The notes under the pieces were generated by a model that was given only the letters and a program-made list of their open reading frames with translations, did not search any database and was not told where the DNA came from. This document shows, in pieces, positions 31,055 to 43,962 of a DNA stretch of 43,962 bases. The position numbers and the translations under genes are program-made. The stretch is from NCBI GenBank assembly GCA_021828285.1, contig JAKASG010000019.1, forward strand, positions 1 to 43,962. Direction: 5' to 3'. How positions within the stretch are numbered: the stretch's first letter is position 1; each line of letters starts with the position of its first letter. This stretch comes from Acidobacteriota bacterium. Its GTDB lineage: Bacteria > Acidobacteriota > Terriglobia > UBA7540.

Positions 31055-31364
31055 TGCCAAAAACCTATGCTGGGAACCTGATTCTGAGCGGATTTCGGAA
31101 GAAAAATGCGCAGCTTTTCCGCGCTGCGCGAGCCGCTATCGCAAAGGTTCGATACTCTGCCGCTCAGCGGTTCGGAGTGCGGCAGCTTGCTAGCCGCGGT
31201 TGAGCGCACGTCGCCCTCCCGCCTGTCATGCCCACCCCTCCGCTGTCGTGCTGAGCAGATAGCAGGTAGCGCCACAGACTAAGGCAACTTGATCCGGCGT
31301 GCGGCGCAGACGCGGCGCGAGTGTCTGCGGCACATAGCCGTTCGCGTGACGCTCGAACCGCCGT

Positions 31365-31370
31365 TATAAT
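31365..31370 (+). promoter_or_regulatory. -10 box of the PD-(D/E)XK-like gene, suggesting a leaderless mRNA
   Basis: Perfect TATAAT, then 7 nt (gggcggc), then GTG at 31378. An in-frame ATG at 31369 overlaps the -10 box itself, so it cannot be transcribed from this promoter. A weak -35 (TTCGCG) lies 18 nt upstream. Confidence 0.5.
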
Positions 31371-31377
31371 GGGCGGC

Positions 31378-32910
31378 GTGCCAGGTGAGTCCGCTCAACA
31401 TGCCCTCGAGAAGCTGCGCGAGGAAATCGAAACGCACATTCGGGCGCTCGGCCATCCTGTGGCCGCGCAGGACGACGCGGAATTGTTCGATCTCACCGCG
31501 GCGAGCTGGCGGCTTGCAGTTGAATACGGCAAGCTGACGCTCGAAATCTGGAATTCCGCGCGCTCGATCGTTCGCCGCGTTGAGGACGTCGCCTATCGCG
31601 ACCACGATCGTTTGGGCCTCTTCGTTCGGCGCGCCGGCGGGCGCGAAACCGAAACTCTGGAGCTGAGAAATCTCCACTCTGCCGGGCGTCGCGACCGCGG
31701 CGCGGATCGCAATCTCTTCCTCAAAAAATTTCTCGGGGCGCTCGGGCGGCAATTTCCCGGCTGGAAATTCGAGCGGGTGAGCCATCGGTCGGACCGCGAA
31801 TTTTCATTGTCCGCCCGTTACGCTCGCGGCCTGGCGCGGCGCGGAACGAGCGCCTGGGCTTTCCTCGCGCTCGCCGAATCGGAATCGCCTGAAGCCGCGG
31901 ATTCGGCGCTCGCGTTCGCATTGATTTGGCTTGACTGGCTTCGCAGCCACGCGGAGCGCGTCACAGTTTCCGGCCTCAAATTGTTTCTGCCGCCTTCCGC
32001 CGTCGAGCTCAATGCCGCTCGCGCCCGGGCGCTCGACTCGCGCGCGTTTCAGCTCGAGCTTTTCGAATATAGAGCGGAAGAGGATTCGCTCGAACCCGTC
32101 GCCGCGGAAGCCGGCGCGGACCTCGGAGTGCACCTCGTTCCGCGCCTTGCCGGAGAGCGATTGCTCGAGCGCCACAGGGATACGCTGCGCGCGCTGCTCG
32201 GCGAGTGGATCGAGCGGGTGGCGGTTGTTCCCGATAGCGCGGGAATGTTTTTGTCCGTGCGGGTCAAAGGGCTTGAAGTCGCGCGCATTGAGGGCGATCT
32301 CGCGCCGCGCATTCTTTACGGCCTTGAAGGCAGCGTCCGCGATTTTCGGCCGGGCGACGAAGCCGCGTTGCGCGCCTTTGTCGCATCGGCCGTCGAGCGC
32401 CGCCGTCCGGATAATCCCGTCCGCACGGATGATTTCTATCGTCTCCAGCCGGAACGCTGGCTTGAGAGCCTGCTGGTTGAGGATTTGACGCGGCTTGATT
32501 CCGAACTCTCACCGGTGATGGTCTATCCGCAGGTTCCCGCCATCACGCGCGCCGGCCGCGGACTGATTGATATTCTCGCCGTGACGCGCGGCGGCCGCCT
32601 CGCGGTGATCGAGCTGAAGCTCCATGAAGAAATCAATTTGCCCATTCAGGCGCTCGACTATTGGTTGCGCGTTAGGGAGCTGAACGGCCATCAGGCGTTG
32701 TCAAGCTCCGGCTTTTTCCCCGGCGTCGCGCTCGATCCTCGCGCGCCGCTCCTTTACCTTGTCTCACCCGGCCTGCGCTTCCATTCGACCACGTCATGCA
32801 CTCTGCGCTATTTCGATCCAGCCATCGAAGTGCGCCGCGTTGGAATCGGATCGGATTGGCGGAATGGAATCAAAGTACTGTTTCGGAAAGCCGGGCGCGC
32901 AGGCCTCTAG
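31378..32910 (+). CDS. Uncharacterised protein with C-terminal PD-(D/E)XK nuclease-like motif
   Basis: About 510 residues from the GTG at 31378. The N-terminal 300 residues contain no motif I recognise; HALEKLREEIETHIRALGHP begins a helical segment and an aromatic-rich mixed region follows. Residues about 385-440 read GRGLIDILAV...LAVIELKLHEEINLPIQALDYWLRV. Asp398, Glu412 and Lys414 match the D-(X)n-ExK signature of restriction-like nucleases, with the helix after the ExK strand seen in NucS/Mrr-like folds. It could be a DNA-acting nuclease or a catalytically silent relative. It stands next to dtd and 0.6 kb before the phage block, but on present evidence belongs to the host. Confidence 0.72.
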   Translation: MPGESAQHALEKLREEIETHIRALGHPVAAQDDAELFDLTAASWRLAVEYGKLTLEIWNSARSIVRRVEDVAYRDHDRLGLFVRRAGGRETETLELRNLHSAGRRDRGADRNLFLKKFLGALGRQFPGWKFERVSHRSDREFSLSARYARGLARRGTSAWAFLALAESESPEAADSALAFALIWLDWLRSHAERVTVSGLKLFLPPSAVELNAARARALDSRAFQLELFEYRAEEDSLEPVAAEAGADLGVHLVPRLAGERLLERHRDTLRALLGEWIERVAVVPDSAGMFLSVRVKGLEVARIEGDLAPRILYGLEGSVRDFRPGDEAALRAFVASAVERRRPDNPVRTDDFYRLQPERWLESLLVEDLTRLDSELSPVMVYPQVPAITRAGRGLIDILAVTRGGRLAVIELKLHEEINLPIQALDYWLRVRELNGHQALSSSGFFPGVALDPRAPLLYLVSPGLRFHSTTSCTLRYFDPAIEVRRVGIGSDWRNGIKVLFRKAGRAGL

Positions 32911-32966: not shown

Positions 32967-33428
32967 CTATTCTTCCCAGGAAATGAAATCCGCCGAGTCG
33001 AGGAACAACGTGACCGGCCCGTCGTTAACAAGCTCAACTTCCATCATCGCGCCGAATTCGCCGGTTTCAACGGGAACGCCGCGTGCGCGCAGAGCCGCGA
33101 CAAATGCTTCGTAGAGATCCTTCGCCACTGATGCCTTCGCGGCGCGCTCAAAGCTTGGTCGCCGCCCTTTTCGGCAATCGGCGTACAAGGTGAATTGCGA
33201 GACCACAAGAAACTCGCCTCCGACATCCTGAGCCGAGCGGTTCATCCGGCGGGCGTCATCGTCGAAGACCCGCAGAACGATGATCTTCTCCGCAAACGTC
33301 ATTGCAACTTCCTGCGTATCGTCCGCGGTAATCCCGATGAGGACCAGCAAGCCTTTGCCGATGCGCGCCACGACTCGGCCTTCGATTCGCACCTCTGCTC
33401 GCTTCACCCGCTGAATCAGAGCCCGCAT
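32967..33428 (-). CDS. dtd: D-aminoacyl-tRNA deacylase
   Basis: A 153-residue protein, full length for the family. It removes D-amino acids (and glycine from tRNA-Ala) from mischarged tRNAs. Both active-site motifs are present: SQFTLYAD (77-84) and [11 protein letters not shown] (135-145). [15 protein letters not shown] is the standard N-terminus, fixing the start at 33428; the frame is open far upstream to 34343 without similarity. The gene is convergent to 31378-32910, ending 56 nt from its stop. It is the last clearly host gene before the phage block. Confidence 0.97.
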
Positions 33429-33528: not shown

Positions 33529-33629
33529 CCCATTCGTCCCAATCGTCCCGGCATGCGGCTGCTAGGCTTGTTTTGTCGGGCAGCGAGGACGGGACGAACT
33601 GGACGAATGGGACGATTGGGATGAATGGG
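33529..33629. repeat. Inverted repeat built from a 9-bp unit at the edge of the phage block
   Basis: The left arm (33529-33549) and right arm (33609-33629) are 21 nt each and complementary at 20 positions, around a 59-nt centre. The right arm belongs to four tandem 9-bp units of type GGACGAATG (33593-33628); the left arm contains about two such units in the opposite orientation. It could fold as a long stem or act as a set of binding sites (iteron-like). It overlaps the first codons of the muramidase-like reading frame, which makes those codons doubtful. Confidence 0.6.
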
Positions 33630-34346
33630 AAAAGGATCGGCGGGGCGAAGGCCAATACGTCCAGCAAAGTCTTCACGGCTGCGGGTGACGACGCTTTGAT
33701 GGAGCGCGTCTATGAACGCTGCCACGAGGCCATGGCCCGCGCGACAGCGGCCGCGACGGCGCCGGAAGCATTTTTGGCGGCACTCGTGGCGAACGAATCG
33801 GGGGCTGAGGCTACTGCGGCGCGATTTGAACCGGCGGTGTATGCGCATCTTGCAGCGGTGGGGCGCGGGGAAGAGCCGGCCTTCGGAAGCATACGGGCCG
33901 CGGCGCTCGACGCGGAAGTGGCCGACCTGCTGCATCCGAAGACGGCGAGCTACCATGCGCGGGCTTTGGGGTTGGTGACAACGAGCCGGCTTAGCGCGCT
34001 GCTTGCCGAGCTGAACGATGAGGCGCTGAGGGAACTCGCGACCTCGTGGGGCTACACGCAGATCATGGGCTATCACGTCATCAACCGGCAGGGCACATTG
34101 CGCGATTTGCTGGACGCGGATTTTCACTTTCGCATGGCCGTCGCGCTGCTCTCGGAATTCGCGGAGGCGTACCAGCTCGATTCGGGACGCGAGTTCCGGG
34201 AAATGTTCTGCTGCTGGAATACCGGGCGGCCCTACGGCGTCACATTCGATCCGGAATACGTGGAAAAGGGGCTGGCGCGGATGGAGATTTATCGAGGAAT
34301 ACTGGCGGCGGAAACGAGCGCGACGACGGCCGGCGCGCAGCAATGA
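33573..34346 (+). CDS. Muramidase-like endolysin
   Basis: Up to 257 residues from a TTG at 33573. The first 20 codons lie in the 9-bp repeat array, so the true start may be the ATG at 33621 or 33699. The core [31 protein letters not shown], followed by [15 protein letters not shown] and [12 protein letters not shown], resembles the N-acetylmuramidase lysins, with Glu in NESG as candidate catalytic residue. It should cleave peptidoglycan for phage release. No signal peptide is seen, so a holin is needed; the following small genes fit that role. Confidence 0.68.
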
Positions 34347-34478
34347 AGCGCGGCGCGTAAGTTGCCGAGCCCACGGCCGGAAAACGCTGAACGGCGCGCA
34401 GCGGAGGGTGAAAGAGAAACAGCCATCGCGCGCCGGTCATAGAAATCCTCTGATTTCTGAGGGGAAAAGGAGAGAAAG

Positions 34479-34610
34479 ATGGAAATTCTTGCGGCGTTTG
34501 GAGCTGGAGCAGTGGCGGGAGGGTTCGCGGTGGCGCTTTTCTATCGCAAGGCGGCCCTTGACCTGGAATCGCTGAAGCGCGACCTGGAAGCGAAGGTGCG
34601 AAGCCTGTGA
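34479..34610 (+). CDS. Small single-span membrane protein of the lysis region
   Basis: 43 residues: MEILAAFGAGAVAGGFAVAL is a transmembrane segment, followed by a charged helix (DLESLKRDLEAKVRSL). A very good ribosome site (AAAAGGAGAG) lies 8-10 nt before the ATG, which supports it as a real gene. It lies between the muramidase-like and holin-like genes, so a part in lysis (pinholin- or antiholin-like) or membrane anchoring is likely. Confidence 0.6.
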   Translation: MEILAAFGAGAVAGGFAVALFYRKAALDLESLKRDLEAKVRSL

Positions 34611-34620
34611 AGAAGCAAGG

Positions 34621-34648
34621 AAGTCTGAAGTATGAAGTGGGAAGGCTG
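34621..34648 (+). repeat. Heptamer tandem repeat (AAGTNTG type), 4 units
   Basis: Four adjacent 7-bp units, AAGTCTG, AAGTATG, AAGTGGG and AAGGCTG, directly after the stop of the small membrane protein gene. The same heptamer family occurs in other gaps of the phage block. Confidence 0.6.
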
Positions 34649-34782
34649 ATGGCCGACGGTGGTTGGGGAAGCAGGAAATAACTGTGTGGCGCTTACCGGC
34701 TGCGCGCCTGGATCTCGAGCCGGCGACGGACGGCCGAACGCCGAGAATGCTCGATCGAGGTTCGCGGGGCGGGAAGCGATTG

Positions 34783-35007
34783 ATGCGGGAATTTCTGAAG
34801 CAACTTTTTTCAGAATCGGGCGAAGCGAGCTTCAGCCGGACGGGATCGTTTCTGGCGCTCGGGATTTCATGCGTCTGGGTGACCTACATCGTCTGGACGA
34901 CGCGCGCGCTGCCGAACCTGGAAGGCCTGACGCTTTTTATCGGGACGCTTTACGGCCTGGGAAAAACGGGCGAGACGGTGCAGCGAGTGGCGGGAAAAAG
35001 ACAGTAG
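34783..35007 (+). CDS. Holin-like membrane protein
   Basis: 74 residues from the ATG at 34783 (GGGAAG upstream); an earlier in-frame start at 34663 adds 40 residues without protein character. MREFLKQLFSESGEASFSRTG is an amphipathic head, then two membrane spans: FLALGISCVWVTYIVW and LEGLTLFIGTLYGLG, ending in a short basic tail (QRVAGKRQ). Size, two spans and a charged C-terminus fit small phage holins that open the inner membrane for the endolysin. It follows the muramidase-like gene by about 440 nt. Confidence 0.62.
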   Translation: MREFLKQLFSESGEASFSRTGSFLALGISCVWVTYIVWTTRALPNLEGLTLFIGTLYGLGKTGETVQRVAGKRQ

Positions 35008-35032
35008 CCGGAAGACAGAAGAGGGGAGCATG

Positions 35033-35046
35033 AAGTGCGAAGCCTG
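35033..35046 (+). repeat. Heptamer repeat, 2 units, in the gap 35008-35200
   Basis: AAGTGCG and AAGCCTG stand side by side in a purine-rich gap. The rest of this 193-bp gap is low-complexity AAG/GAAG-rich sequence without a gene. Confidence 0.35.
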
Positions 35047-35200
35047 AAGACGACGCGAAGAGTATCGAAGGCTGAAGGCGGGAGTCAGGGGATTGAAGTG
35101 AAAAGCAGCGGGCCGCGGGAGCGCGCGCAAAGACCAAAACGGCGAGCGGGCGCAGCTCAAGGCATGAAGGAAACGTGAAGGCCGGTGAGAGTGAAGCGGC

Positions 35201-35755
35201 GTGATTCCAACGTATCAAGCGCAATTCGCAAGACCGCTGGTGGATCAATTGATCGCCATATTGCAGCGGGACCAGCAGGCGGCGCTCGACATTGTGAACG
35301 CGATGCGGCCTTCGGGACGGGCGCTCAACCCGTTTACGGGGTTTTACAAGGAAGCGGCGCCGGTGCAGAACTGGCCGGCGGTGGTGCTGGTGGCGCAGAG
35401 CACGGCCTTCGATCCGAATTCGGACATCGGGCTGCGCTCGGAAACGGTGAAATTCGCGTGCTCGATGGCGATTACGGATTCGGACCCGGAATGGCTGGCG
35501 GAAGACGCGATGGATTACCTACACGCGGTGGACATGGTGCTCACGTCAATACAGTTTTCGGATTTTTATACGCCGCTTCCGATCACGCACACGACGGCGC
35601 CGAGCGGGATGACGGCGGGACTCAATCCGGCGGTGTCGAAGGTGCAGGACCTGCGGATCACGAGCCACGATTTGGGCGCCTTGATGCGGCGCGGCACGGG
35701 AGCGCTGGCGCGCAGCGCGCAGATCGGGTTTGAGGTGGAGATGGCGGAGACGTAA
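35201..35755 (+). CDS. Phage tail-terminator/completion-like protein
   Basis: 184 residues, starting at GTG. The layout resembles small tail-terminator and tail-completion proteins: N-terminal helix (LVDQLIAILQRDQQAALDIV), FTGFYKEAAPVQNWPAVVLV (the VP-x-(Y/W)PAV strand common in these families), then SETVKFACSMAITDSDPEWLAEDAMDYLHAVDMVL. No close family is recognised with confidence. In Mu, connector and tail genes follow the head genes; here this one precedes the terminase, so the order is rearranged. Confidence 0.5.
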   Translation: MIPTYQAQFARPLVDQLIAILQRDQQAALDIVNAMRPSGRALNPFTGFYKEAAPVQNWPAVVLVAQSTAFDPNSDIGLRSETVKFACSMAITDSDPEWLAEDAMDYLHAVDMVLTSIQFSDFYTPLPITHTTAPSGMTAGLNPAVSKVQDLRITSHDLGALMRRGTGALARSAQIGFEVEMAET

Positions 35756-35767
35756 GAATTAAGAATT
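35754..35767 (+). repeat. Heptamer repeat AAGAATT, 2 units
   Basis: Two perfect copies begin inside the TAA stop of the previous gene and are followed by GTGAAGTGG. It is another variant of the 7-bp repeats of this block. Confidence 0.4.
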
Positions 35768-35805
35768 GTGAAGTGGTGGATGGGCATTTGAATTGAAGGG
35801 GCGCG

Positions 35806-35973
35806 ATGGGCGGTTTCACTTTAAATATCGAATCGGCCGATGCATTCAAGGGGCTGGAGGGTCTTCCGAAGGCGGCAAAGCCGAATGAGGGAGATTCGGT
35901 CGGCGGCCGGTGGTGTGAAGTTCAGTCAGGCGGTCCAGGGATGCACGGGCGAGACGCCTGTGCCACAAGAACC
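35806..35973 (+). pseudogene. Truncated phage tail-completion (HK97 gp10-like) gene fragment
   Basis: 55 codons. The first 27 (MGGFTLNIESADAFKGLEGLPKAA, then KPN) read like the start of an HK97-gp10/virion-morphogenesis protein, which is normally over 100 residues. After that the frame runs into a palindromic intergenic repeat (35943-35965) and stops. The downstream part of such a gene is missing. I take it as a tail gene cut by deletion or by repeat insertion; a genuine 55-residue protein is possible but less likely. Confidence 0.45.
35943..35965. repeat. Palindromic intergenic repeat (CACGGGCG ... CGCCTGTG type)
   Basis: Arms CACGGGCG and CGCCTGTG surround AGA, pairing at 7 of 8 positions plus one G-T. 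I recognise the sequence type (translated as TGETPVP in one frame) as a frequent dispersed repeat in acidobacteria-like genomes. It lies inside the truncated gene 35806-35973. Confidence 0.5.
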
Positions 35974-36001
35974 TGATGATTCGAGAAGAGGCGGACGTTC
36001 G

Positions 36002-36817
36002 ATGAAGTGGCCGGCGAAGTGGGACGGGAAAGCGGCGGCGGTGGCGGCGGCGCTGATGGTGGCGGGACTCGCGCTGCACGAGCACGAAGTGTGGCGGAGG
36101 GAGCGAACGGCGCTTCAAGGGGAAGCGGCGAGCGCGCGGACGGCGGCGGCGGAGCAGGCGAAGGCGGCCGCAGCGGCGGAGCGGACAGCGAATGAAAACG
36201 GCGCGCGAGCCATGCGGCTCGAAGCGCGAAGCGCGGAACTCGAGAAGCGCAACCAGGCGCTCGAAGCGGAACTCGCGCGAATGACCGCGGACGAGCGGCA
36301 AGCGGAAACGCAGGCGGCAAAGATGCCGGTGAGCGAAGTCGTGCAGCGAATTGAAGAGCGAGTGGCAGGGAAAGAAACGGGGTCAGGGAAAGAAACGGGA
36401 TTGGCGGGCGCGGAGAGCAGGGGCGGGTTTCCGAACCTGCCGCACCGCCGGGCGCGAGCGGCCGGCGGACAAGGCGCGGTGCTGGCGCTGAACGGGACGG
36501 AAGCGAGGAAAGTGGAGACGGCGTTTATCGAACTCGATTCCTGCCGCGAGGAGCGGTCGAATCTGGAGGAGCAGGCGGCGGATTGCAGCGCGGAGACGGC
36601 GGACGAGACGCAATCGCTCGGGGCGGAACAGCAGGCGACGGCGAAATTGAAGCAGGCGCTCAAGGAGAAAGATCAGGAGATCGCGGCGCGCGAGAATCAA
36701 GCGCAGGCGGAAGTGAAGGCGGCGAGGGGAACGTTCTTCAGCCGCGTCGAGCGGACGGCCACGCACGTCCTGATCGGAGTGGGAATTGGCATTGCCGTTG
36801 GATTCGCGGTGAGGTGA
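36002..36817 (+). CDS. Coiled-coil membrane protein of the phage block (spanin-like layout)
   Basis: 271 residues from the ATG at 36002; the frame is open to 35840 but crosses a dispersed repeat, so the longer form is unlikely. An N-terminal membrane span (AAAVAAALMVAGLALHEHEVW) is followed by a long Ala/Glu/Arg-rich coiled coil (about 35-125), a Gly/Arg-rich hinge, a second coiled coil with two Cys (CREERSNLEEQAADC), and a C-terminal span (HVLIGVGIGIAVGFAV). The first half looks like an inner-membrane spanin (Rz), but the second span is unusual for Rz. Its place after the lysis genes supports an envelope function. Confidence 0.55.
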   Translation: MKWPAKWDGKAAAVAAALMVAGLALHEHEVWRRERTALQGEAASARTAAAEQAKAAAAAERTANENGARAMRLEARSAELEKRNQALEAELARMTADERQAETQAAKMPVSEVVQRIEERVAGKETGSGKETGLAGAESRGGFPNLPHRRARAAGGQGAVLALNGTEARKVETAFIELDSCREERSNLEEQAADCSAETADETQSLGAEQQATAKLKQALKEKDQEIAARENQAQAEVKAARGTFFSRVERTATHVLIGVGIGIAVGFAVR

Positions 36818-36838
36818 GGGAAGGGCGATGGCAATGCG

Positions 36839-37180
36839 ATGACGATGCCGAATGACTGGGCGAATGTGGCGATGTGGTGGGGGCCGGGAGCGGCGCTGCT
36901 GATCCTGCTCGGCTATGGAGGGTTGCGCCTGGCGCGCGTGTGGATCGAGAAGAGCCTGGACGTGCGGCGGCAGCAGATGGAAAGCATGCTGGGGATGGCG
37001 CGGCACTACGTCGAGCAGTTTCTGGGGGCGCAGAAGTCGCAGGTGGAAGCGCTCTCACGGCTGGCGAGCTCGGTCGAGGCGCGCGACACGCGCGAGAGCT
37101 TCGAGCATCAGGAAATTCTGATCGCGCTGAGAGCGCTGCACCGGGAAGTCGGCGACCTCTCCGCAAAAGGGAAGGCGTGA
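36839..37180 (+). CDS. DUF2730-like phage protein (Mu gp25 position)
   Basis: 113 residues: a short N-terminus, one membrane span (WGPGAALLILLGYGGLRLARVW), then a coiled coil (LDVRRQQMESMLGMARHYVEQFLGAQKSQVEAL) and RALHREVGDLS near the end. Size, single span and position directly before the winged-helix and small-terminase genes match Mu gp25/DUF2730, whose role is unknown. The start could also be the ATG at 36845. It lies 21 nt after the coiled-coil gene. Confidence 0.6.
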   Translation: MTMPNDWANVAMWWGPGAALLILLGYGGLRLARVWIEKSLDVRRQQMESMLGMARHYVEQFLGAQKSQVEALSRLASSVEARDTRESFEHQEILIALRALHREVGDLSAKGKA

Positions 37181-37193
37181 ATTTGGGAGACAG

Positions 37194-37242
37194 AAGTGTG
37201 AAGTATGAAGTGTGAAGTATGAAGTGGGAAGTATGAAGTATG
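37194..37242 (+). repeat. Heptamer tandem repeat AAGTRTG, 7 units
   Basis: Seven adjacent 7-bp units without any gap: AAGTGTG and AAGTATG alternate, with one AAGTGGG. It begins 13 nt after the stop of the DUF2730-like gene. This is the longest and cleanest array of the heptamer family in the window. Confidence 0.85.
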
Positions 37243-37288
37243 AAGGCGAGCGCGGGGCGCCTGAAACCTGGAAGGTGATACCCGAAAC

Positions 37289-37654
37289 GTGACGACAAGG
37301 AACGGACGAGGGCTCATGACTATTCGGCGACAGGAAGTAATTCGAGGAAGGCTTCTTTATTACCTGGCGCTGCTTTATCCGCAGGCGGCGACGCTGACGC
37401 TGCTGCAAGGCGAGATGGACCTGGTGGGCTATCCGATGATGGCGGACGATCTGAGGTTTCACGTGGCCTATCTTGCGGAAAAGGGCCTGGTGAGCGTCGA
37501 GCGGCAGCGCGGACCGCTCGGACGGAGGGAAGTGGAACTGGTGAAGATCACGGCGCGCGGGATTGATTACCACGACGGACGATTGCCGGAAGACGAAGGA
37601 ATTTATCGCGAGCGGAGCCGGGCGGAAGGCAGGGACGGGAAGCGGGAAGAGTGA
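37289..37654 (+). CDS. Winged-helix phage protein (Mu gp26 position)
   Basis: 121 residues; the start may instead be the ATG at 37316 (MTIRRQEV). The core RGRLLYYLALLYPQAATLTLLQGEMDLVGYPMMADDLRFHVAYLAEKGLVSVERQRG is a winged-helix fold: three helices, then a beta hairpin carrying LVKITARGIDYHDGR. This matches the small winged-helix protein that precedes the small terminase gene in many Mu-like phages. Its function is not established; DNA binding is likely. Its last codons overlap the 61-bp tandem repeat. Confidence 0.65.
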   Translation: MTTRNGRGLMTIRRQEVIRGRLLYYLALLYPQAATLTLLQGEMDLVGYPMMADDLRFHVAYLAEKGLVSVERQRGPLGRREVELVKITARGIDYHDGRLPEDEGIYRERSRAEGRDGKREE

Positions 37655-37803
37655 AGCATGAAGTGAAGGGATGAATTGCGATGCGGAAGACAGGGACGGG
37701 AAGCGGGAAGAGTGAAGCATGAAGTGAAGGGATGAATTGCGATGCGGAAGACAGGGACGGGAAGCGGGAAGAGTGAAGTATGAAGTGAAGGGATGAATTG
37801 CGA
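37622..37803 (+). repeat. 61-bp tandem repeat, almost 3 copies
   Basis: Copies begin at 37631, 37692 and 37753, with exactly 61 bp between them; identity is almost complete until 37803. The unit contains AAGTGAAGGG followed by ATG, so each copy carries a ribosome-site-plus-start cassette, and a heptamer-like GAAGCATGAAGTGAAG. Because 61 is not a multiple of 3, each copy shifts frame. It spans the end of the winged-helix gene and the start of the small terminase gene. Confidence 0.9.
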
Positions 37804-38521
37804 CGGGCGGCGGGCGGGGCATGTGGCGGGCGTGAAAAGAGGAACGGGAAAAGCGGAGGAGCCGAAGGGGCAAAAGCTCACGCCGGTGGCGGAGGTGGCG
37901 AAACTGCCGGCGGATTTGGTCGAACTGGTGATAAAGATTCTGGAGAAGGGCGGAGCGCTCGAAGACGCGGTGGAAGCGGTGGGAAAGCTCGGCGGGTTCC
38001 TGATTACGACGGCGGCGGTGCGCATCTTCTTCCACGAGCGGCCCGAGCTGGCAGAGCGGCGGATGGCGTATCTGCTTGAGAGCGCGCAACTGCTGCGCGC
38101 CAAGGCGAAGAATCCGTACTCGAAGACGGCGAAGGCGCTTCCCGAGCCGCTCGAACTTGATTTGACGAACGCGTGGCTGCTGACGGGGATGATGTTCCTC
38201 AATCGGGATGACGTGCGCTACACGCTGCGCGACGCGATGAGGGTGAAATTCCAGACCGAAAACATCGCGCTCAAAAGGGAAATCTTCCGACGCGATCTCG
38301 AGCAAGAAGGGCGAAGGTTGGAAGCGCAGGAATCGCGCCGGGAGCAGGAATCGCAACGGACCGAGCTGCTACGGCTGAAAGTGGCGGAGCTGCGGGAAAA
38401 AGCCCTGCGGCCGGGGCCGAAGTCGCGGGAAGAGTTGCTCGCGCAGGTTCATGAAATCTACGGACTGGTGGCGCCCGACGAGCCGGAGAACGCAATGCAA
38501 AGCGCGGAGCTTGAGAGCTGA
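37793..38521 (+). CDS. DUF3486-like small terminase subunit (Mu gp27 position)
   Basis: 242 residues from the ATG in the last repeat copy; the GTG at 37832 (VKRGTG) is an alternative start. KLTPVAEVAKLPADLVELVIKILEKGG...GFLITTAAVRIFFHE looks like the DNA-binding part of small terminases, and a long Arg/Glu-rich helix (EIFRRDLEQEGRRLEAQESRR...) forms an oligomerisation coiled coil. It should recognise phage DNA and load the large terminase. It lies 111 nt upstream of TerL, with a solitary REP arm in the gap. Confidence 0.62.
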   Translation: MNCDGRRAGHVAGVKRGTGKAEEPKGQKLTPVAEVAKLPADLVELVIKILEKGGALEDAVEAVGKLGGFLITTAAVRIFFHERPELAERRMAYLLESAQLLRAKAKNPYSKTAKALPEPLELDLTNAWLLTGMMFLNRDDVRYTLRDAMRVKFQTENIALKREIFRRDLEQEGRRLEAQESRREQESQRTELLRLKVAELREKALRPGPKSREELLAQVHEIYGLVAPDEPENAMQSAELES

Positions 38522-38565
38522 GGGGCGAAGGGTCTGCATTGTTTTCCATCCGCTGATGAAAAGCA

Positions 38566-38588
38566 GATTCTTCGCTTCGCTCAGAATG
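38566..38588 (+). repeat. Solitary arm of the REP-like element
   Basis: 23 nt matching, with one mismatch, the right arm of the element at 24005-24027 (core CTTCGCTTCGCTCAGAATG). No opposite arm is present. It lies in the 111-bp gap between the small and large terminase genes, so a host repeat has entered the phage block. Confidence 0.7.
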
Positions 38589-38632
38589 ACAAGGTTTAAC
38601 GGATTATTCGGCCCTCTCCCGGCGAAAAAAGG

Positions 38633-40180
38633 ATGCGGGGGATGACCAGCGGAGTGAATGACCCGATGACGACGATGCAGAGCCAAGTTCGATTGCTGCC
38701 CTACCAGCGGCGATGGGTGGAAGACGATTCGCCGCTCAAGATCGCGGTGAAGGCGCGGCAAATCGGATACTCGTTTGCGGCGACGTTGCGAGCGGTTCTC
38801 GAATGCATCGAGCGGCGAACGACGTGGATTTTCCTTTCGAAGGGCGAGCGGCAGGCGCGGCTGCTGATGGAAAAAGTGCGCGACCACTTGCGAACGTGCG
38901 GCGCGGTGGCGGAGTGGAACGACTCCTCCTTTCTCAAAGGGACGAGCACGCAGCAACTGGAAGCGAGGCTGCCAAACGGATCGGTGATTTACGGATTGCC
39001 GGCGAATCCGGATACGGCGCGCGGATATTCAGGGAACGTGACGCTCGATGAGTTCGCTTTCCACTCGGACGCGGAGAAGATTTACGCGGCGCTTTATCCG
39101 AGCATCACGCGAGGGTATTCGATCGAAATCATCTCGACGCCGAACGGGCCGCGAGGGAAATTTTACGAGCTGGCGAAGGCGGCGGGGCTCGATGAAAAGG
39201 CGTCCGCAGAAGGCTCGCAAAGCCGGCGGCTGAAAACCGGGAGCTGGTCGGGACACTGGTGCGACATTCATCAGGCGATCCGGGAGGGGCTTGCCAAGCA
39301 ATTGCGAATTCCGGAATCGGAGTTGGTGGCGATGCTGCGCGGCGGCGCGGACGACGCGACGTGGCGGCAGGAATTCCGCTGCGAGTTTCTCTCAACGGCG
39401 ACGCAATGGATTCCGCCGAAATTGTGGGCGATGAGCGTGTCAAGCGAAGCGAGCGCCAGCTTCGGAGGCGAGGAGACGGAAGGCGGAAGGCGGGAGAGCG
39501 ATGAGGGAGCCGCGCATTCTGACTCCTGTCCGCCAGGGGACGGACGGAGTTCCGGCCACTTGTACGCGGGGTGGGACGTGGCGCGGAAGCGGGACCTTTC
39601 CGTGATTTGGGTGATCGAGCGAGCGGGAGAAACGAGCTGGACGCGCGGAGTGATCGAGATGGAAAACCGGCCGACGCCGGAGCAGATGGAGCGTGCGAGG
39701 GCGCTGCTTGCAATGGGCGGAGACGAAGCGGAACGGGGCGGAGAGGCGCGGATCCGGCGGATGGCGATTGACCCGTCGGGAATGGGACTCGCGATTTACG
39801 AGGAACTGGCGCGGGAATTTCCGGGAAGGGTCGAGGGCGTGCAATTCACGCAGGCGACGAAAGAGGCGATGGCGGTGCGCGTGAAAGAGCGCATGGAACG
39901 CGGCTTGCTGCGCGTGCCGGATTCGGAAGCGATGCGGCAATCGTTCATGGCGCTGAAACGCGTGGTGACGGCGACGGGGCTTACGCGGTTCGATGCGGAA
40001 CACGACGCGCACTACGGACACGCGGACCACTTCTGGGCGTGCGCGCTTGCGGAGGCCGCGGCGGAACGAGGTTCGGCGAGGCGGCCGAGCTGGCGCGACG
40101 CGTTTGTCACGGAGGGAACGCCGATGATCAATCCGAAGGTCTTCGGGCTGCCGCATCTGGCGGGAGCGAGGCTGCTTTGA
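38633..40180 (+). CDS. Terminase large subunit, Mu gp28-like
   Basis: 515 residues; the start may be the ATG at 38642 or 38666 (MTTMQSQVRLLPYQRRWVEDD). The ATPase part has an atypical Walker A (IAVKARQIGYSFAA), WIFLSKGERQARLLMEKV, Walker B VTLDEFAFHSDAEKIY and coupling motif IISTPNGPRGKFYEL. The RNase-H-like nuclease follows: HLYAGWDVARKRDLSVIWVIE with the first Asp, AIDPSGMG with the second, and HYGHADHFWACALA with the last. It packages phage DNA by ATP-driven translocation and cuts it. Between the domains a low-complexity stretch (GGEETEGGRRESDEGAAHSD) is probably an insertion. Confidence 0.9.
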   Translation: MRGMTSGVNDPMTTMQSQVRLLPYQRRWVEDDSPLKIAVKARQIGYSFAATLRAVLECIERRTTWIFLSKGERQARLLMEKVRDHLRTCGAVAEWNDSSFLKGTSTQQLEARLPNGSVIYGLPANPDTARGYSGNVTLDEFAFHSDAEKIYAALYPSITRGYSIEIISTPNGPRGKFYELAKAAGLDEKASAEGSQSRRLKTGSWSGHWCDIHQAIREGLAKQLRIPESELVAMLRGGADDATWRQEFRCEFLSTATQWIPPKLWAMSVSSEASASFGGEETEGGRRESDEGAAHSDSCPPGDGRSSGHLYAGWDVARKRDLSVIWVIERAGETSWTRGVIEMENRPTPEQMERARALLAMGGDEAERGGEARIRRMAIDPSGMGLAIYEELAREFPGRVEGVQFTQATKEAMAVRVKERMERGLLRVPDSEAMRQSFMALKRVVTATGLTRFDAEHDAHYGHADHFWACALAEAAAERGSARRPSWRDAFVTEGTPMINPKVFGLPHLAGARLL

Positions 40181-40206
40181 ATGGTGAATGCAGGAGAAAG
40201 AAGAGG

Positions 40207-40234
40207 AAGCGCGAAGCAAGAAATACGAAGACTG
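40207..40234 (+). repeat. Degenerate heptamer repeat, 4 units, in the gap 40181-40314
   Basis: AAGCGCG, AAGCAAG, AAATACG and AAGACTG follow each other in 7-bp register. The 134-bp gap between terminase and portal genes is otherwise purine-rich and holds no gene. Confidence 0.35.
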
Positions 40235-40314
40235 AGAACTGGCGCCGAAACCCGAGGACCGGCGGATGAAAGCCTGAAACCGGGCCGAGGGACGGGGAAC
40301 CGCGGACAAAAGAG

Positions 40315-41631
40315 ATGAAATTAGGACCGATTGAAATTTCGTGGAAGCGGGCGCTGGCGGAATCGCAAGCGGCGATGCCGATGGAGCGGACCCGGGCGAA
40401 AGCGGAAACGCTGATGACGGGTTTGTCGGGCACGCCGATCTTCCACGGATTTCTCGAAGATTTCGGCGAATACAATCCCGAGCTTGAAGGGATGACGGGC
40501 GTGCGAGTGTACGAGCAGATGCGGCGCTCGGACGCGCAGGTGGCGGCGACGCTGCTGGCGTGCGAGCTGCCGATCCGCGCGGCGAATTGGGACGTCGAGG
40601 CGGCATCGGACGCGGCCGGAGACCGGGAAATCGCGGATTACGTCCGGGAAAATCTGTTCGGCGGGCTCGAATACGTTTCGCCGGCGGGACTGCGCGTGTC
40701 GCAGCCGTGGGACGACGTGCTGAGAAACGCGCTGCTGATGCTGGCGTTCGGCGCGTCGGCGCAGGAGGAGATTTACGCGATTGACGGCGACCGAGTGCGC
40801 CTGGCACGGCTCGCGCCGCGGCCGCCCATCACGTTCTACCGGTGGCTCACGGACGTGGACGGCGAAACGCTGGTGGCGCTCAATCAGTACGGCTACCGGA
40901 ACGCGAATTTCGAAAGCGTGATAATTCCGGCGGACCGCCTGACGGTGTTCACGTTCAACCAGGAGGGCGCGAATTTCTTCGGGCGATCCATGCTGCGGCC
41001 GGCGTACCTGCACTGGTACGTCAAGCAGCAGCTCTACCGGATTGACGCGATCGCGGGCGAGCGGAACGGGCTCGGCGTGCCGGTGATCGAGCAGGGGCCG
41101 GACGCTTCGCAGGAAGACCGCGAGGCGGCGGCGACGTGGGTGACGCAACTCGCGACGCACGAGAAAACAGGGCTCGCGCTGCCGAATGGATGGAAATTCA
41201 CGCTGCAGGGCGTGACGGGCACGGCGCGGGATCTCTACAACACCATCCAACACCACAACATCGAGATTTCGCGGACGGCGCTCGCGTTTTTCATGAACAC
41301 GGGAATGGGCGCGCGCTCGAGCGGGAACCGCGCGCTCGCGCAGACCCAGACGGATTTCTTCTACCGCGCGCTGCAGGCGACCGCGGAGCAGATCGCGCGC
41401 GCGATGACGGAAACGACGGTGAAGCGCCTGGTGGATTACAACTGGGAAAACGTGGAGGCGTATCCGACGCTGACCGTCGCGAACCTCGAGGCGCGAAATT
41501 TTACGGAGACGTTCGGCGTGCTCAGCCAGTTGGCGCAGGCGGGCGTGATCGCGCCCTATCCCGATTTGGCCGAGTACGTGGCGCGAGAGCTGGGATTGCC
41601 GCAGCCGAAGGCGGGAAATGGACGGCCGTAA
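40315..41631 (+). CDS. DUF935 portal protein, Mu gp29-like
   Basis: 438 residues. Motifs of the Mu-type portal family: MRRSDAQVAATLLACELPIRAANWDVE near residue 70, SAQEEIYAIDGDRVRLARLAPR, FTFNQEGANFFGRSMLRPAYLHWYVKQ, and SRTALAFFMNTGMGARSSGNRALAQTQTDFF. Twelve copies would form the ring through which DNA enters the head. Somewhat shorter than Mu gp29 (about 510), mainly at the C-terminus. The gp30/F minor head gene that normally follows is absent: only 173 nt separate it from the protease gene. Confidence 0.92.
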   Translation: MKLGPIEISWKRALAESQAAMPMERTRAKAETLMTGLSGTPIFHGFLEDFGEYNPELEGMTGVRVYEQMRRSDAQVAATLLACELPIRAANWDVEAASDAAGDREIADYVRENLFGGLEYVSPAGLRVSQPWDDVLRNALLMLAFGASAQEEIYAIDGDRVRLARLAPRPPITFYRWLTDVDGETLVALNQYGYRNANFESVIIPADRLTVFTFNQEGANFFGRSMLRPAYLHWYVKQQLYRIDAIAGERNGLGVPVIEQGPDASQEDREAAATWVTQLATHEKTGLALPNGWKFTLQGVTGTARDLYNTIQHHNIEISRTALAFFMNTGMGARSSGNRALAQTQTDFFYRALQATAEQIARAMTETTVKRLVDYNWENVEAYPTLTVANLEARNFTETFGVLSQLAQAGVIAPYPDLAEYVARELGLPQPKAGNGRP

Positions 41632-41708
41632 GTTCGAGGATTGAAGGGAAAAAGCAGAGGAAGGAAAAAAGCGAAGCGGATCGTTTGCGGCTCGCAGTGA
41701 TGTGAAAC

Positions 41709-41733
41709 TGCTCGCCTGAAGGCGGGCGCTGCG
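41709..41733. repeat. Small palindromic repeat (CGCCTGAAGGCG type)
   Basis: CGCCT and AGGCG pair around GA, extended on the right by GGCGCTGCGA. I recognise this as another common dispersed palindrome in such genomes. It lies in the 173-bp gap between the portal and protease genes, which otherwise shows no gene. Confidence 0.4.
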
Positions 41734-41804
41734 ACGCAAAGTGTTCGCGGACGTGAAGGGCGAAGTGTGCGCGCGCGAATGCGGGCGCGAATGAGGGTCG
41801 AAAC

Positions 41805-43346
41805 ATGGTGATGAAGAAAGAAGCGGACGGGGAACATGCGGCGGAAGATTACCTGGTGGTCGGCGACGCGCTGAAGCCGAGCACGTGGCGGCTGCGCGTG
41901 CGCGACGCCCAAGGAAAGCTCGACCACCGGCTGATGGGCGCGGCGTGGGCGGCGCAGCACAGCGGGTTCCGAGGAAGAGTTTATGCGGGTCCGGAACGGG
42001 CCGAGGCGATCCGGAAATTGGAGGCGCTCTACCGAAGCGAAGGCATGGCGCTGCCGCATACGAGCGCAGGCGAGGTGAGCGCGACGGGACCACAGTTCGT
42101 CGCGCGGCTCGCGGACTTCGCGGAAGCGGAGGGCGCGGACACGCGCGCGCGGATTCCGGTGGCCCTTACGGGGACGTGGGCGCGCGGAGGAGAACGGTTC
42201 TCCATCACAAGACGCGACCTCGAAAATATCGCGAAGAATTTTCGCGCGCGGCGGAACGGCGAAATCAATGTGGATTACGACCACGCGAGCGAGCAGCCGG
42301 AAGTGGCCGCGGGCGGGCCGGTGCCGAGCGCGGGACGGATTGTGGGGCTCGATGAGATCGAAGACACCGGAGAGCCGGCGACCGGGAATGGAACTCGCGG
42401 AGCGGCGAAGACGAATTCGAGTTTCACGACCCAAGATGGCAAAAATCCGGGCGGCGAGGCCCGGTCCATCCTCTGGGGGTGGTACGAGCCGACGGAGCGG
42501 GCGCGGAAACTGATTCGCAACCGCGAGTACCGGTATATCAGCCCGGCGATTGACTGGGGCGCGCGGTCGAAACGGTCGGGGAAACCACAAGGCGCGACGC
42601 TGACTTCGGTGGCGCTGACGAATCGGCCGTTTTTGGAAGAGCTGCCGGAGATCCGGCTTTCCGACCCGGCGTTTCGATTGATTGACACGGGCAGCGTGCA
42701 CGTGGAGACGTCGCTGCCGGATGAGCCCGTGAGCGAAAGCCGAGAGTCAGGAGATTCCAGAGAAGAGACAGGAGGAAACATGAAGAAGGTCAAAGTTCGA
42801 ACGCTGCCGGAGGAGCGGAAAATCGCGGTGGTGCATCCGGATTTTGCGGACGAGTACTACGCGGAACCGGAAGACCTGGAAACGGCGCTCGCGGAGCTGG
42901 GGATCGGGCTCGAGCCGGCGATATCAGTGAATCCCGATCCGGAAAGCATCACGCTTTCGGAAGCGTCGGCGCTCTCCTCGGAGACGCAGGCGCAGGGGAA
43001 AACCGTGGCGGCGGGGGAATTCTTCCGGGCGCGAGTGGAGCAGGCGGTCGAGGATGCGGCGCGGACGGGAAAGATTCTGCCGCGGCAGCGCGACGATTGG
43101 CGGCGGATCGCGCTCGCGGATTTCGCGACGTTCACCCGGCTGATGAGCGAACAGAAGCCGCGCGTGCCGACGGCGCCGATTGGAATCGCCGGCGGCGCGC
43201 CAACGGACGCGGCGAGCGAAGTGCGTCTGCTGGCCGAGCAACGAATGCGGGAGCGGGGCGTGAGCTTCGGCCAGGCGCTGAGCGAAATCGGACGCGAGCA
43301 GCCGCGGCTGGTCCGCGAATACCGGCGAAGCGTAAGCGCGGACTAA
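41805..43346 (+). CDS. Phage prohead protease (Mu gpI-like) with scaffold C-terminus
   Basis: 513 residues. Residues 1-95 are an N-terminal extension (LKPSTWRLRVRDAQGKLDHRLMGAAWAAQHSG) not found in Mu I. Residues about 110-300 are the phage I-like protease: ITRRDLENIAKNFRARRNGEINVDYDHASEQPEVA with the likely catalytic His, GWYEPTERARKLIRNREYRYISPAIDW, and LTSVALTNRPFLEELPEI. The last 188 residues are acidic and helical, as in scaffold proteins, and can be made separately from an internal start (next entry). The enzyme processes the scaffold during head assembly. Confidence 0.88.
   Translation: MVMKKEADGEHAAEDYLVVGDALKPSTWRLRVRDAQGKLDHRLMGAAWAAQHSGFRGRVYAGPERAEAIRKLEALYRSEGMALPHTSAGEVSATGPQFVARLADFAEAEGADTRARIPVALTGTWARGGERFSITRRDLENIAKNFRARRNGEINVDYDHASEQPEVAAGGPVPSAGRIVGLDEIEDTGEPATGNGTRGAAKTNSSFTTQDGKNPGGEARSILWGWYEPTERARKLIRNREYRYISPAIDWGARSKRSGKPQGATLTSVALTNRPFLEELPEIRLSDPAFRLIDTGSVHVETSLPDEPVSESRESGDSREETGGNMKKVKVRTLPEERKIAVVHPDFADEYYAEPEDLETALAELGIGLEPAISVNPDPESITLSEASALSSETQAQGKTVAAGEFFRARVEQAVEDAARTGKILPRQRDDWRRIALADFATFTRLMSEQKPRVPTAPIGIAGGAPTDAASEVRLLAEQRMRERGVSFGQALSEIGREQPRLVREYRRSVSAD
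42780..43346 (+). CDS. Nested scaffold protein from an internal start (Mu gpZ-like)
   Basis: An in-frame ATG at codon 326 of the protease gene has a perfect AGGAGG (42770-42775) 4 nt before it, a better ribosome site than the gene's own. The product, MKKVKVRTLPEERKIAVV onward, would have 188 residues: acidic N-terminal half, then helices EFFRARVEQAVEDAARTGKI and AEQRMRERGVSFGQALSEI. In phage Mu the scaffold Z is made in just this way from inside gene I. Expression from the internal start is inferred. Confidence 0.65.
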   Translation: MKKVKVRTLPEERKIAVVHPDFADEYYAEPEDLETALAELGIGLEPAISVNPDPESITLSEASALSSETQAQGKTVAAGEFFRARVEQAVEDAARTGKILPRQRDDWRRIALADFATFTRLMSEQKPRVPTAPIGIAGGAPTDAASEVRLLAEQRMRERGVSFGQALSEIGREQPRLVREYRRSVSAD

Positions 43347-43363
43347 ACGACTAACGATTGAGC

Positions 43364-43396
43364 GATTGGTGATTTGCGATTGTGCAATCACCAATC
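43364..43396. repeat. Perfect 11-bp inverted repeat before the decoration gene
   Basis: GATTGGTGATT (43364-43374) and AATCACCAATC (43386-43396) pair fully around an 11-nt loop; looser pairing of ATTGAG with CTCAAT extends outward. It lies between the protease stop and the decoration gene's ribosome site. No T-run follows, so it may be an RNA stabiliser or processing site rather than a terminator. Confidence 0.6.
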
Positions 43397-43427
43397 CCAA
43401 ATCACTCGATCACTCAATGGAGGAAAC

Positions 43428-43841
43428 ATGGCAGGAGCAACGTACGTACTGGACAAGACTTACAAGATCGTTTCGGCGGCCGGCGTGACGGAATACACGG
43501 CGCTCGTGGCGGGGCCGGCGGACGGACAAGTGCAGTTGCCGACCGCGGCGAACCAACTGGTGATGGGGATCGCGCAGGAAAACCAGCCCAACCAGAACGA
43601 AAATGTGGTGGTGCGGAAATACGGGATATCACGCGCCGTCGCCGCCGGAGCGATCACGGCAGGGCAATACGTGGAAGTGGCGAACACGCTCGGGCAATTG
43701 CAGCAGTCGAACCTGACGAGCGTGCCAGCGACCGCGACGCTCCACAACATCGTCGGCATCGCCGAAAGCTCGACGACGCAGGCGGGCGAAGTGTTCTTCG
43801 TGTTTCTCTCGCCCGCGCCGACCGTGGTGCCGGTGTCTTAG
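43428..43841 (+). CDS. Capsid decoration/cement protein, DUF2190-like
   Basis: 137 residues from the ATG at 43428, fixed by TGGAGGAAAC directly upstream; an upstream in-frame start at 43374 lies in the inverted repeat. AGPADGQVQLPTAANQLVMGIAQENQPNQNENVVVRKYGISRAVAAGAITAGQYVEV is a small beta-tulip-like fold typical of DUF2190 and lambda-D-like proteins that stabilise the head after expansion. In Mu-like phages it usually comes just before the major capsid gene; that gene is not visible in the 121 nt left. Confidence 0.8.
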   Translation: MAGATYVLDKTYKIVSAAGVTEYTALVAGPADGQVQLPTAANQLVMGIAQENQPNQNENVVVRKYGISRAVAAGAITAGQYVEVANTLGQLQQSNLTSVPATATLHNIVGIAESSTTQAGEVFFVFLSPAPTVVPVS

Positions 43842-43962
43842 TAATACTAGGTTAAGTTCTATGAGGTGTCCGTGAACTCCGTAAGGCACCACGCACAACG
43901 TCCACTGAGTCTAATCAGCAGCGCGAGGAGCTGCCGGCGGACTCGGGGCAGACTCCACGTCG
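43842..43962. other. Window end, no gene recognised
   Basis: 121 nt after the decoration gene. GGTGTCC (43865-43871) and GGCACC (43884-43889) could pair with a bulge as a weak hairpin. No ribosome site with start codon for the expected major capsid gene is present. Confidence 0.3.

Follow-up and report, generated by a model that had tools for sequence, protein, structure and literature searches.

A Mu-like phage block at a shared chromosomal site in Acidobacteriota: a domesticated element and gene transfer agent candidate

The window analysed here is an entire contig (C109; GenBank JAKASG010000019.1, 43,962 nucleotides) of an Acidobacteriota bacterium whose genome assembly (GCA_021828285.1) comprises 119 contigs and 2.97 Mb and is 92.7% complete. 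Its right 10 kb, beyond the host dtd gene, holds a block of lysis, packaging and Mu-like head genes, every one of them open and on the plus strand. A preliminary description had read this block as either a defective prophage or a gene transfer agent (GTA), and the question it raises is whether such genes are the residue of a phage, part of a phage that still moves, or an element kept for the particle that it would encode. Comparison with other genomes of the family (genomes, contigs, loci and genera are given as G, C, L and g numbers) supported well the conclusion that the block is a domesticated phage, a selected element that is inherited largely vertically. It is a strong candidate for a GTA of independent origin and putative function, and a domesticated Mu-like phage most likely working as a GTA is the reading favoured here, with a probability of about 0.6.

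Extent, site and distribution of the block

The right end of the window was considered as the phage's own end and rejected as such: it is a non-random break at a copy of a multicopy insertion sequence, which sits between the genes for the head decoration protein (D) and the capsid. Nine left and nine right ends of this insertion sequence were found in the genome, on contig ends, and it fragments the assembly. The 4-base target duplications paired exactly, with CTAG four times, TTAG three times and CTAA twice at the left ends, and CTAG four times, TTAG twice and CTAA three times at the right ends read inward (a YTAR target is typical of the IS701 family). The window end carries TTAG (43838-43841), and its mate was therefore among C43, C79 and C103. 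C103, which begins with the capsid gene, was taken as the mate because it was the sole TTAG candidate whose gene content continued the phage; C43 and C79, with only host-type genes near their ends, were ruled out.

C103 overlapped C89 by 127 bases. On these contigs the capsid gene (phrog_1005, E-value 5e-86; Phage_cap_E) was followed by a connector, candidates for the tail tube and for a short tape measure, a large hub and a spike, corresponding to a siphovirus-type tail, and beyond the spike lay host PilZ genes, polA and lpxC (the last two named by reading the translation). The total length of the block was approximately 25 kb. Family profiles matched neither a transposase or integrase nor a repressor or replication gene in the block of the source genome (window, C103 and C89), and the blocks of G010 and G006, which are complete from one host flank to the other, likewise gave no match to a propagation gene; some block proteins match no family, and a divergent propagation gene could escape. 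The MuA family (phrog_310) gave one weak fragment of 48 positions in the whole source genome, on another contig, and MuA was not matched beside the blocks of the family, though it was present in true prophages there. These results agreed with the preliminary description, which had reported lysis-type genes directly after dtd with no MuA/MuB, repressor or integrase, and a portal followed by the protease without a gp30/F gene; a transposase further right, which it had named as a refuting finding, was not matched on C103 or C89. As in a GTA, the block is derived from a tailed phage, with packaging, head and tail genes, and no gene for its own propagation was matched.

One genome, G029, has a true Mu-like prophage on C47 in addition to its block at dtd; we take this prophage to be a transposable siphovirus of the B3/DMS3 type. 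Gene order was alike in the two, and the terminase, portal, protease, D, capsid and tail proteins were related; the prophage capsid was 56% identical to that of the source genome. Only the prophage had MuA (phrog_310, 5e-66), MuB (phrog_296, 1e-26) and a helix-turn-helix repressor candidate. Its portal of 877 amino acids has a MuF-like extension (recognised by eye, with phrog_595 at only 0.0024) that the block portal lacks, and its tape measure is 710 amino acids long, compared to 248-311 amino acids in eight blocks; the comparison of prophage and block rests on this one prophage.

The gene dtd adjoined the lysin gene in ten genomes (the source genome, G006, G007, G010, G012, G015, G019, G023, G028 and G029), and the other end of the block lay by PilZ or cyclodeaminase (R1) genes in eight (the source genome, G006, G010, G012, G014, G023, G024 and G029, the last placed by a contig that holds both capsid and R1 genes). 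The site was therefore common to 12 genomes of nine genera (g1, g4, g7, g8, g11, g12, g13, g15 and g16). It hosts two types of block, A and B, and an empty site, at which the same host genes stand together without the block, was found in G020 and G061. Mu-type phages insert almost at random, so that the sharing of one site speaks for a single ancestral insertion. Contigs too short to place the block were the rule among the other genomes.

The portal gene was present in 28 of 61 genomes, namely the source genome and 27 of 36 others of the same family, and in none of 24 genomes outside it. The capsid profile matched 32 of 39 family genomes (E-values of 1e-91 to 1e-167); elsewhere in the class it matched 11 of 360 genomes, and much more weakly (1e-28 to 1e-88). 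Portal, capsid or both were found in 34 of the 39 family genomes, and a further genome, G012, has kept both block ends around a deletion that runs from terminase to hub. Confinement to a single strain, which the preliminary description had named as refuting its proposal, was therefore not observed. Neither gene was found in G002, G017, G025 and G035. True prophages, recognised by a MuA match on the capsid contig, occurred in G029 (C47), G036 (C62 and C764) and G061 (C884), each of which holds another capsid copy besides; on short contigs, block and prophage are indistinguishable. The portal profile matched none of 395 other genomes of the phylum at 1e-20, a sample apparently without further family members that covers the outside only.

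Several side observations concern this distribution. In L091 (G012 C291, about 10200-11000) the first part of the terminase is fused to the end of the hub with both flanks kept, by deletion or by an assembly join. Fifteen of 49 capsid-profile loci (L172-L204) were titled Candidatus Sumerlaeota, Sumerlaeia, Sumerlaeaceae or BRC1; these have a capsid (39-51%) and mostly a decoration protein in common with the block and little else of it, and may represent a separate second phage-derived lineage common in that phylum. Near-complete fragments of the block were present in the IMG/VR viral catalogue (L207-L220), one of which, L220, is chromosomal, since it includes the host dtd adjoining the lysin gene. 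Many contigs of G003, G016, G019, G022, G028 and G032 end soon after dtd or its neighbour, host gene L, or inside the block, as if the block were hard to assemble.

Co-divergence, selection and putative function

The portal of the source genome was 68-76% identical to type A and approximately 50% identical to type B portals. Against type A genomes, identity was 69-77% for the capsid, 65-69% for host polA and 48-52% for host gene L. Trees built by a quick method gave portal clades {g2, g12, g15, g16}, {g6, g14}, g7, g11, g3 and g5 that agreed with those of polA, with the deeper order of the types and the placement of g1 unsettled and two g3 portal genomes without a polA row. Portal and polA distances were correlated in Mantel tests across 22 genomes (r = 0.575; p of 0.0001 to 0.0009 across the three tests), within type A (8 genomes, r = 0.849, p = 0.0007) and within type B (9 genomes, r = 0.747, p = 0.0009); the correlation was weaker for the terminase (type A, r = 0.31; type B, r = 0.45). 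The polA of G061 (54% identity) was treated as a paralogue and excluded from tree and distances. The common site and the agreement of trees and distances point to vertical inheritance, with exceptions in g3, g5 and g14.

Same-genus pairs with unsaturated synonymous divergence (dS) had ratios of nonsynonymous to synonymous divergence (dN/dS) of about 0.05-0.35, including approximately 0.11-0.29 for the portal, 0.07-0.15 for the capsid and 0.14-0.29 for the terminase. Over 60 kb compared between G010 and G023, 22 block genes had a median dS of 0.55 and dN/dS of 0.18, and 27 flanking host genes a median dS of 0.68 and dN/dS of 0.14. The difference in dS was significant (p = 0.003) yet small, and because divergence was similar, the block has been in place for about as long as its flanks. 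Capsid (dN/dS of 0.07) and portal (0.10) were among the most constrained genes of this pair. The block has thus been under long-term purifying selection. The preliminary description had suspected selection for capsid function, as in GTAs, and synteny and dN/dS do favour selection for the particle.

These values bear on the simplest explanation, that the block is an ordinary defective prophage, decaying and kept by chance. The copy in the source genome fits such an account: the insertion sequence splits D from the capsid and the tail hub contains an in-frame TAG (C89:1611), so that this copy is probably impaired and the genome possibly losing the function. The deletion in G012 fits it too. Chance retention is, however, the least probable of the explanations weighed here, given the near-family-wide presence of the block and its open frames in the compared genera with dN/dS far below 1 at dS of about 0.4-1. 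For the family as a whole decay is already contradicted; it may apply to the copy in the source genome.

Several observations weigh against the favoured reading, that of a largely vertically inherited GTA. The first is the damage to the copy in the source genome. One g3 and one g5 genome have an empty site and carry portal or capsid elsewhere. In G034, of g3, the block lies among other host genes, with no transposase seen, and the g14 genomes hold the block at another site, with the right flank common to G026 and G030 and the left flank to G026 and G013. Types A and B differ more (portal approximately 50%) than their hosts do (polA 64-72% identical to the source genome), and the terminase of the source genome is closer to that of g14 type B (54-57%) than to type A (46-50%). 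The host reference was polA alone, one gene, and the trees were made by a quick method. In type A, portal and capsid dS was about half of polA dS; these genes have a higher GC content at third codon positions, which may explain the low dS, and codon bias, recombination or later exchange are possible causes. The carbon-poor signature of RcGTA-type GTAs was not found in the capsid, which had 5.06 carbons per residue (15 family rows) compared to 4.91 in 59 distant viral rows, the opposite direction; for the portal the direction was as expected (4.87 in 27 rows, 5.02 in 30 rows), a mixed result overall. A Sumerlaeota row was left out of this comparison, as the loci chosen for it by hand included three with other titles. 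Finally, particles, packaging and transfer are predicted from the gene families.

The low type A dS, the genomes in which the block is missing or lies elsewhere, and the true Mu-like prophages with related heads in the family would also be expected of a temperate phage that is still mobile, prefers a site by dtd and follows the host tree through host restriction. Such a phage is improbable, though somewhat less so than chance decay: the complete G010 and G006 blocks yielded no integrase, transposase, repressor or replication gene, no MuA was found on block contigs, and divergence over 60 kb resembled that of the flanking host genes.

If the block is a GTA, its history may be reconstructed as follows. 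The starting point would have been a transposable, Mu-like phage, its tail of siphovirus type, that inserted by dtd in the family ancestor and subsequently lost its genes for transposition, immunity and replication and, judged from one prophage, most of its tape measure as well as the MuF-like portion of its portal. From then on it would have passed down mainly with the chromosome, under purifying selection. We infer that the block is switched on in some cells, that its terminase packs fragments of the host chromosome into heads, that the lysis genes release short-tailed particles, that rapidly diverging spike genes select the recipient cells, and that delivery brings some benefit. Head filling, release and short-tail delivery are proposed because the gene families imply them, and host DNA as cargo because propagation genes were lost and terminase, portal and capsid are constrained.

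Two spike-type genes were far more diverged between G010 and G023 than the block median (dS of 1.92 and 1.45 compared to 0.55). Rapid spike divergence and retained lysis genes are predicted equally by a domesticated particle like PBSX, with heads that hold random host DNA, tails that kill relatives and spikes that set the targets, without gene transfer; a fixed site and purifying selection would be expected of it too. This explanation is unlikely but carries more weight than decay or a still-mobile phage. A tail weapon has no need of head and packaging genes, yet these were among the most constrained, and among the families scanned none for toxins or immunity gave a match. As a separate observation, the spike-type proteins at L052:5590-7896, L052:16487-18547, L050:3203-5380 and L058:768-2870 differed strongly between close relatives, and two of the four had beta-helix or pectate-lyase-like Pfam matches.

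Acidobacteria are among the commonest soil phyla, and if the GTA reading is true, one of these phyla has a built-in system of DNA exchange. That an independently evolved GTA of Mu-like origin is an ancestral, near-universal trait of the family, moving chromosomal DNA in soil Acidobacteria, appears slightly more probable than its opposite. Block fragments in IMG/VR may be counted there as phages. The prevalence of GTAs is an open question, and GTAs outside the Alphaproteobacteria are hard to find by similarity, according to Fogg 2024 (PMC11841831). The present candidate was picked without similarity to a known GTA, by family-wide presence, a shared and an empty site, a prophage in the same genome and local dS. 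No paper describing a GTA in Acidobacteria was found in the literature searched, which did not extend to subscription papers and is no proof of absence; PMC5900883 uses the GTA phrase in a general sense and reports prophages in other subdivisions.

Genes of the block inside the window

Features of the window are listed in the table. Gene L was present in 36 of 39 family genomes and adjoined dtd and the block in several genera. The name dtd, taken from the preliminary description, is presumed to be correct; its homologues were 55-68% identical and adjoined L, the lysin gene or both in relatives. The endolysin-like gene, with matches to Muramidase (PF11860, E-value 0.027, below the cut-off) and phrog_2860 (0.0014), was conserved at 50-59% in G010, G023, G006 and G029. 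The holin-like gene had no match in Pfam or PHROG and was 66-70% identical in four relatives. In G014, a genome of type B, the holin matched PF11351 (9e-19), a family titled 'Holin of 3TMs, for gene-transfer release', although such a title does not prove the function.

Table. Features in and beside the phage block, in window coordinates
Feature	Position	Strand	Remarks
Host gene L, left neighbour of the site	31321-32910	+	529 amino acids; family not confident
Host dtd (D-aminoacyl-tRNA deacylase, presumed), left block boundary	32967-33428	-	Open reading frame
Endolysin-like gene, first of the block	33573-34346	+	Start codon uncertain
Small conserved gene, holin-like by position	34663-35007	+	
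Gene in tail-connector/terminator position	35201-35755	+	Intact, upstream of terminase
Rz-like spanin candidate	35840-36817	+	phrog_89, 0.02
Small conserved phage gene	36839-37180	+	52-65% in relatives
7/14-base tandem repeat	37193-37245		
phrog_436 gene, conserved phage gene	37289-37654	+	phrog_436, 1.1e-14
61-base tandem repeat	37622-37803		Three copies
Small terminase candidate	37793-38521	+	G010 homologue matches Phage_Mu_Gp27, 2.4e-6
Large terminase (ATPase and nuclease)	38633-40180	+	Terminase_6C, 9.9e-20; Terminase_6N, 2.1e-13; phrog_2, 9.5e-38
Portal, Mu type, without MuF-like extension	40315-41631	+	Portal_Mu, 1.1e-48; phrog_113, 7e-69
Head maturation protease/scaffold, Mu gpI type	41805-43346	+	Mu-like_Pro, 9.2e-21; phrog_328, 2.6e-22
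Head decoration/cement protein (D)	43429-43841	+	phrog_673, 5e-10; Phage_cement_2, 0.0074
Insertion sequence left end, multicopy	43842-43962		Last 121 bases; terminates contig

The phrog_436 gene was 60-70% identical across both block types. The small terminase candidate itself had no Pfam or PHROG match, and all 25 rows compared retained the Walker B motif of the large terminase, LDEFAF. A single NCBIfam match was obtained, and it fell short of the cut-off. The preliminary description was right that the head genes are long and intact (terminase, portal and protease are all open) and that a tail-terminator-like gene precedes the terminase. The homologue of that gene sits after the capsid gene in G010, G023, G006, G014 and G030, so the gene has moved in the source genome, the only such case among those compared. 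The broken tail gene that had been placed in the window was not found there; the interrupted gene is the hub on C89. Tandem repeats do occur as described, but a host-type origin found no support: five of their motifs were absent from the 13 other stretches of the genome that were compared.

Comparison with known phage-derived systems

The block differs from a Mu-like transposable prophage, in which MuA and MuB stand by the late genes, and from a tailocin, which has no head or packaging genes, since terminase, portal, protease and capsid are present and constrained. RcGTA and RcGTA-like elements of Alphaproteobacteria likewise lack mobility genes while carrying genes for head, tail and lysis, and the RcGTA-like elements are likewise inherited vertically under purifying selection, as described in PMC11841831, PMC9836097 and PMC10883770. 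The RcGTA tape measure is also short, with approximately 216 residues (summed from a passage of PMC7296036, which gives a tail of 49 nm), compared to 248-311 in the blocks. At roughly 0.15 nm per residue, 250-310 residues would predict a block tail of about 40-50 nm. In likely contrast to RcGTA, the portal, protease and capsid of the block fall in Mu-type and gpE-type families, by Pfam and PHROG matches, and lysis and tail genes stand together in one block of approximately 25 kb. GC skew was dropped as a sign of a GTA, as it was 0.19-0.27 in the window block but lower in the blocks of G010 (0.025) and G006 (0.128).

The GTAs of Bartonella and Brachyspira are groups of independent origin, according to PMC9662315. 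They belong to other phyla than the hosts of the block and are likened to it by description only. PBSX of Bacillus is a fixed, domesticated defective prophage with a DNA-filled particle; it too is likened to the block by description only, and differs from it in function, phage type and host phylum.

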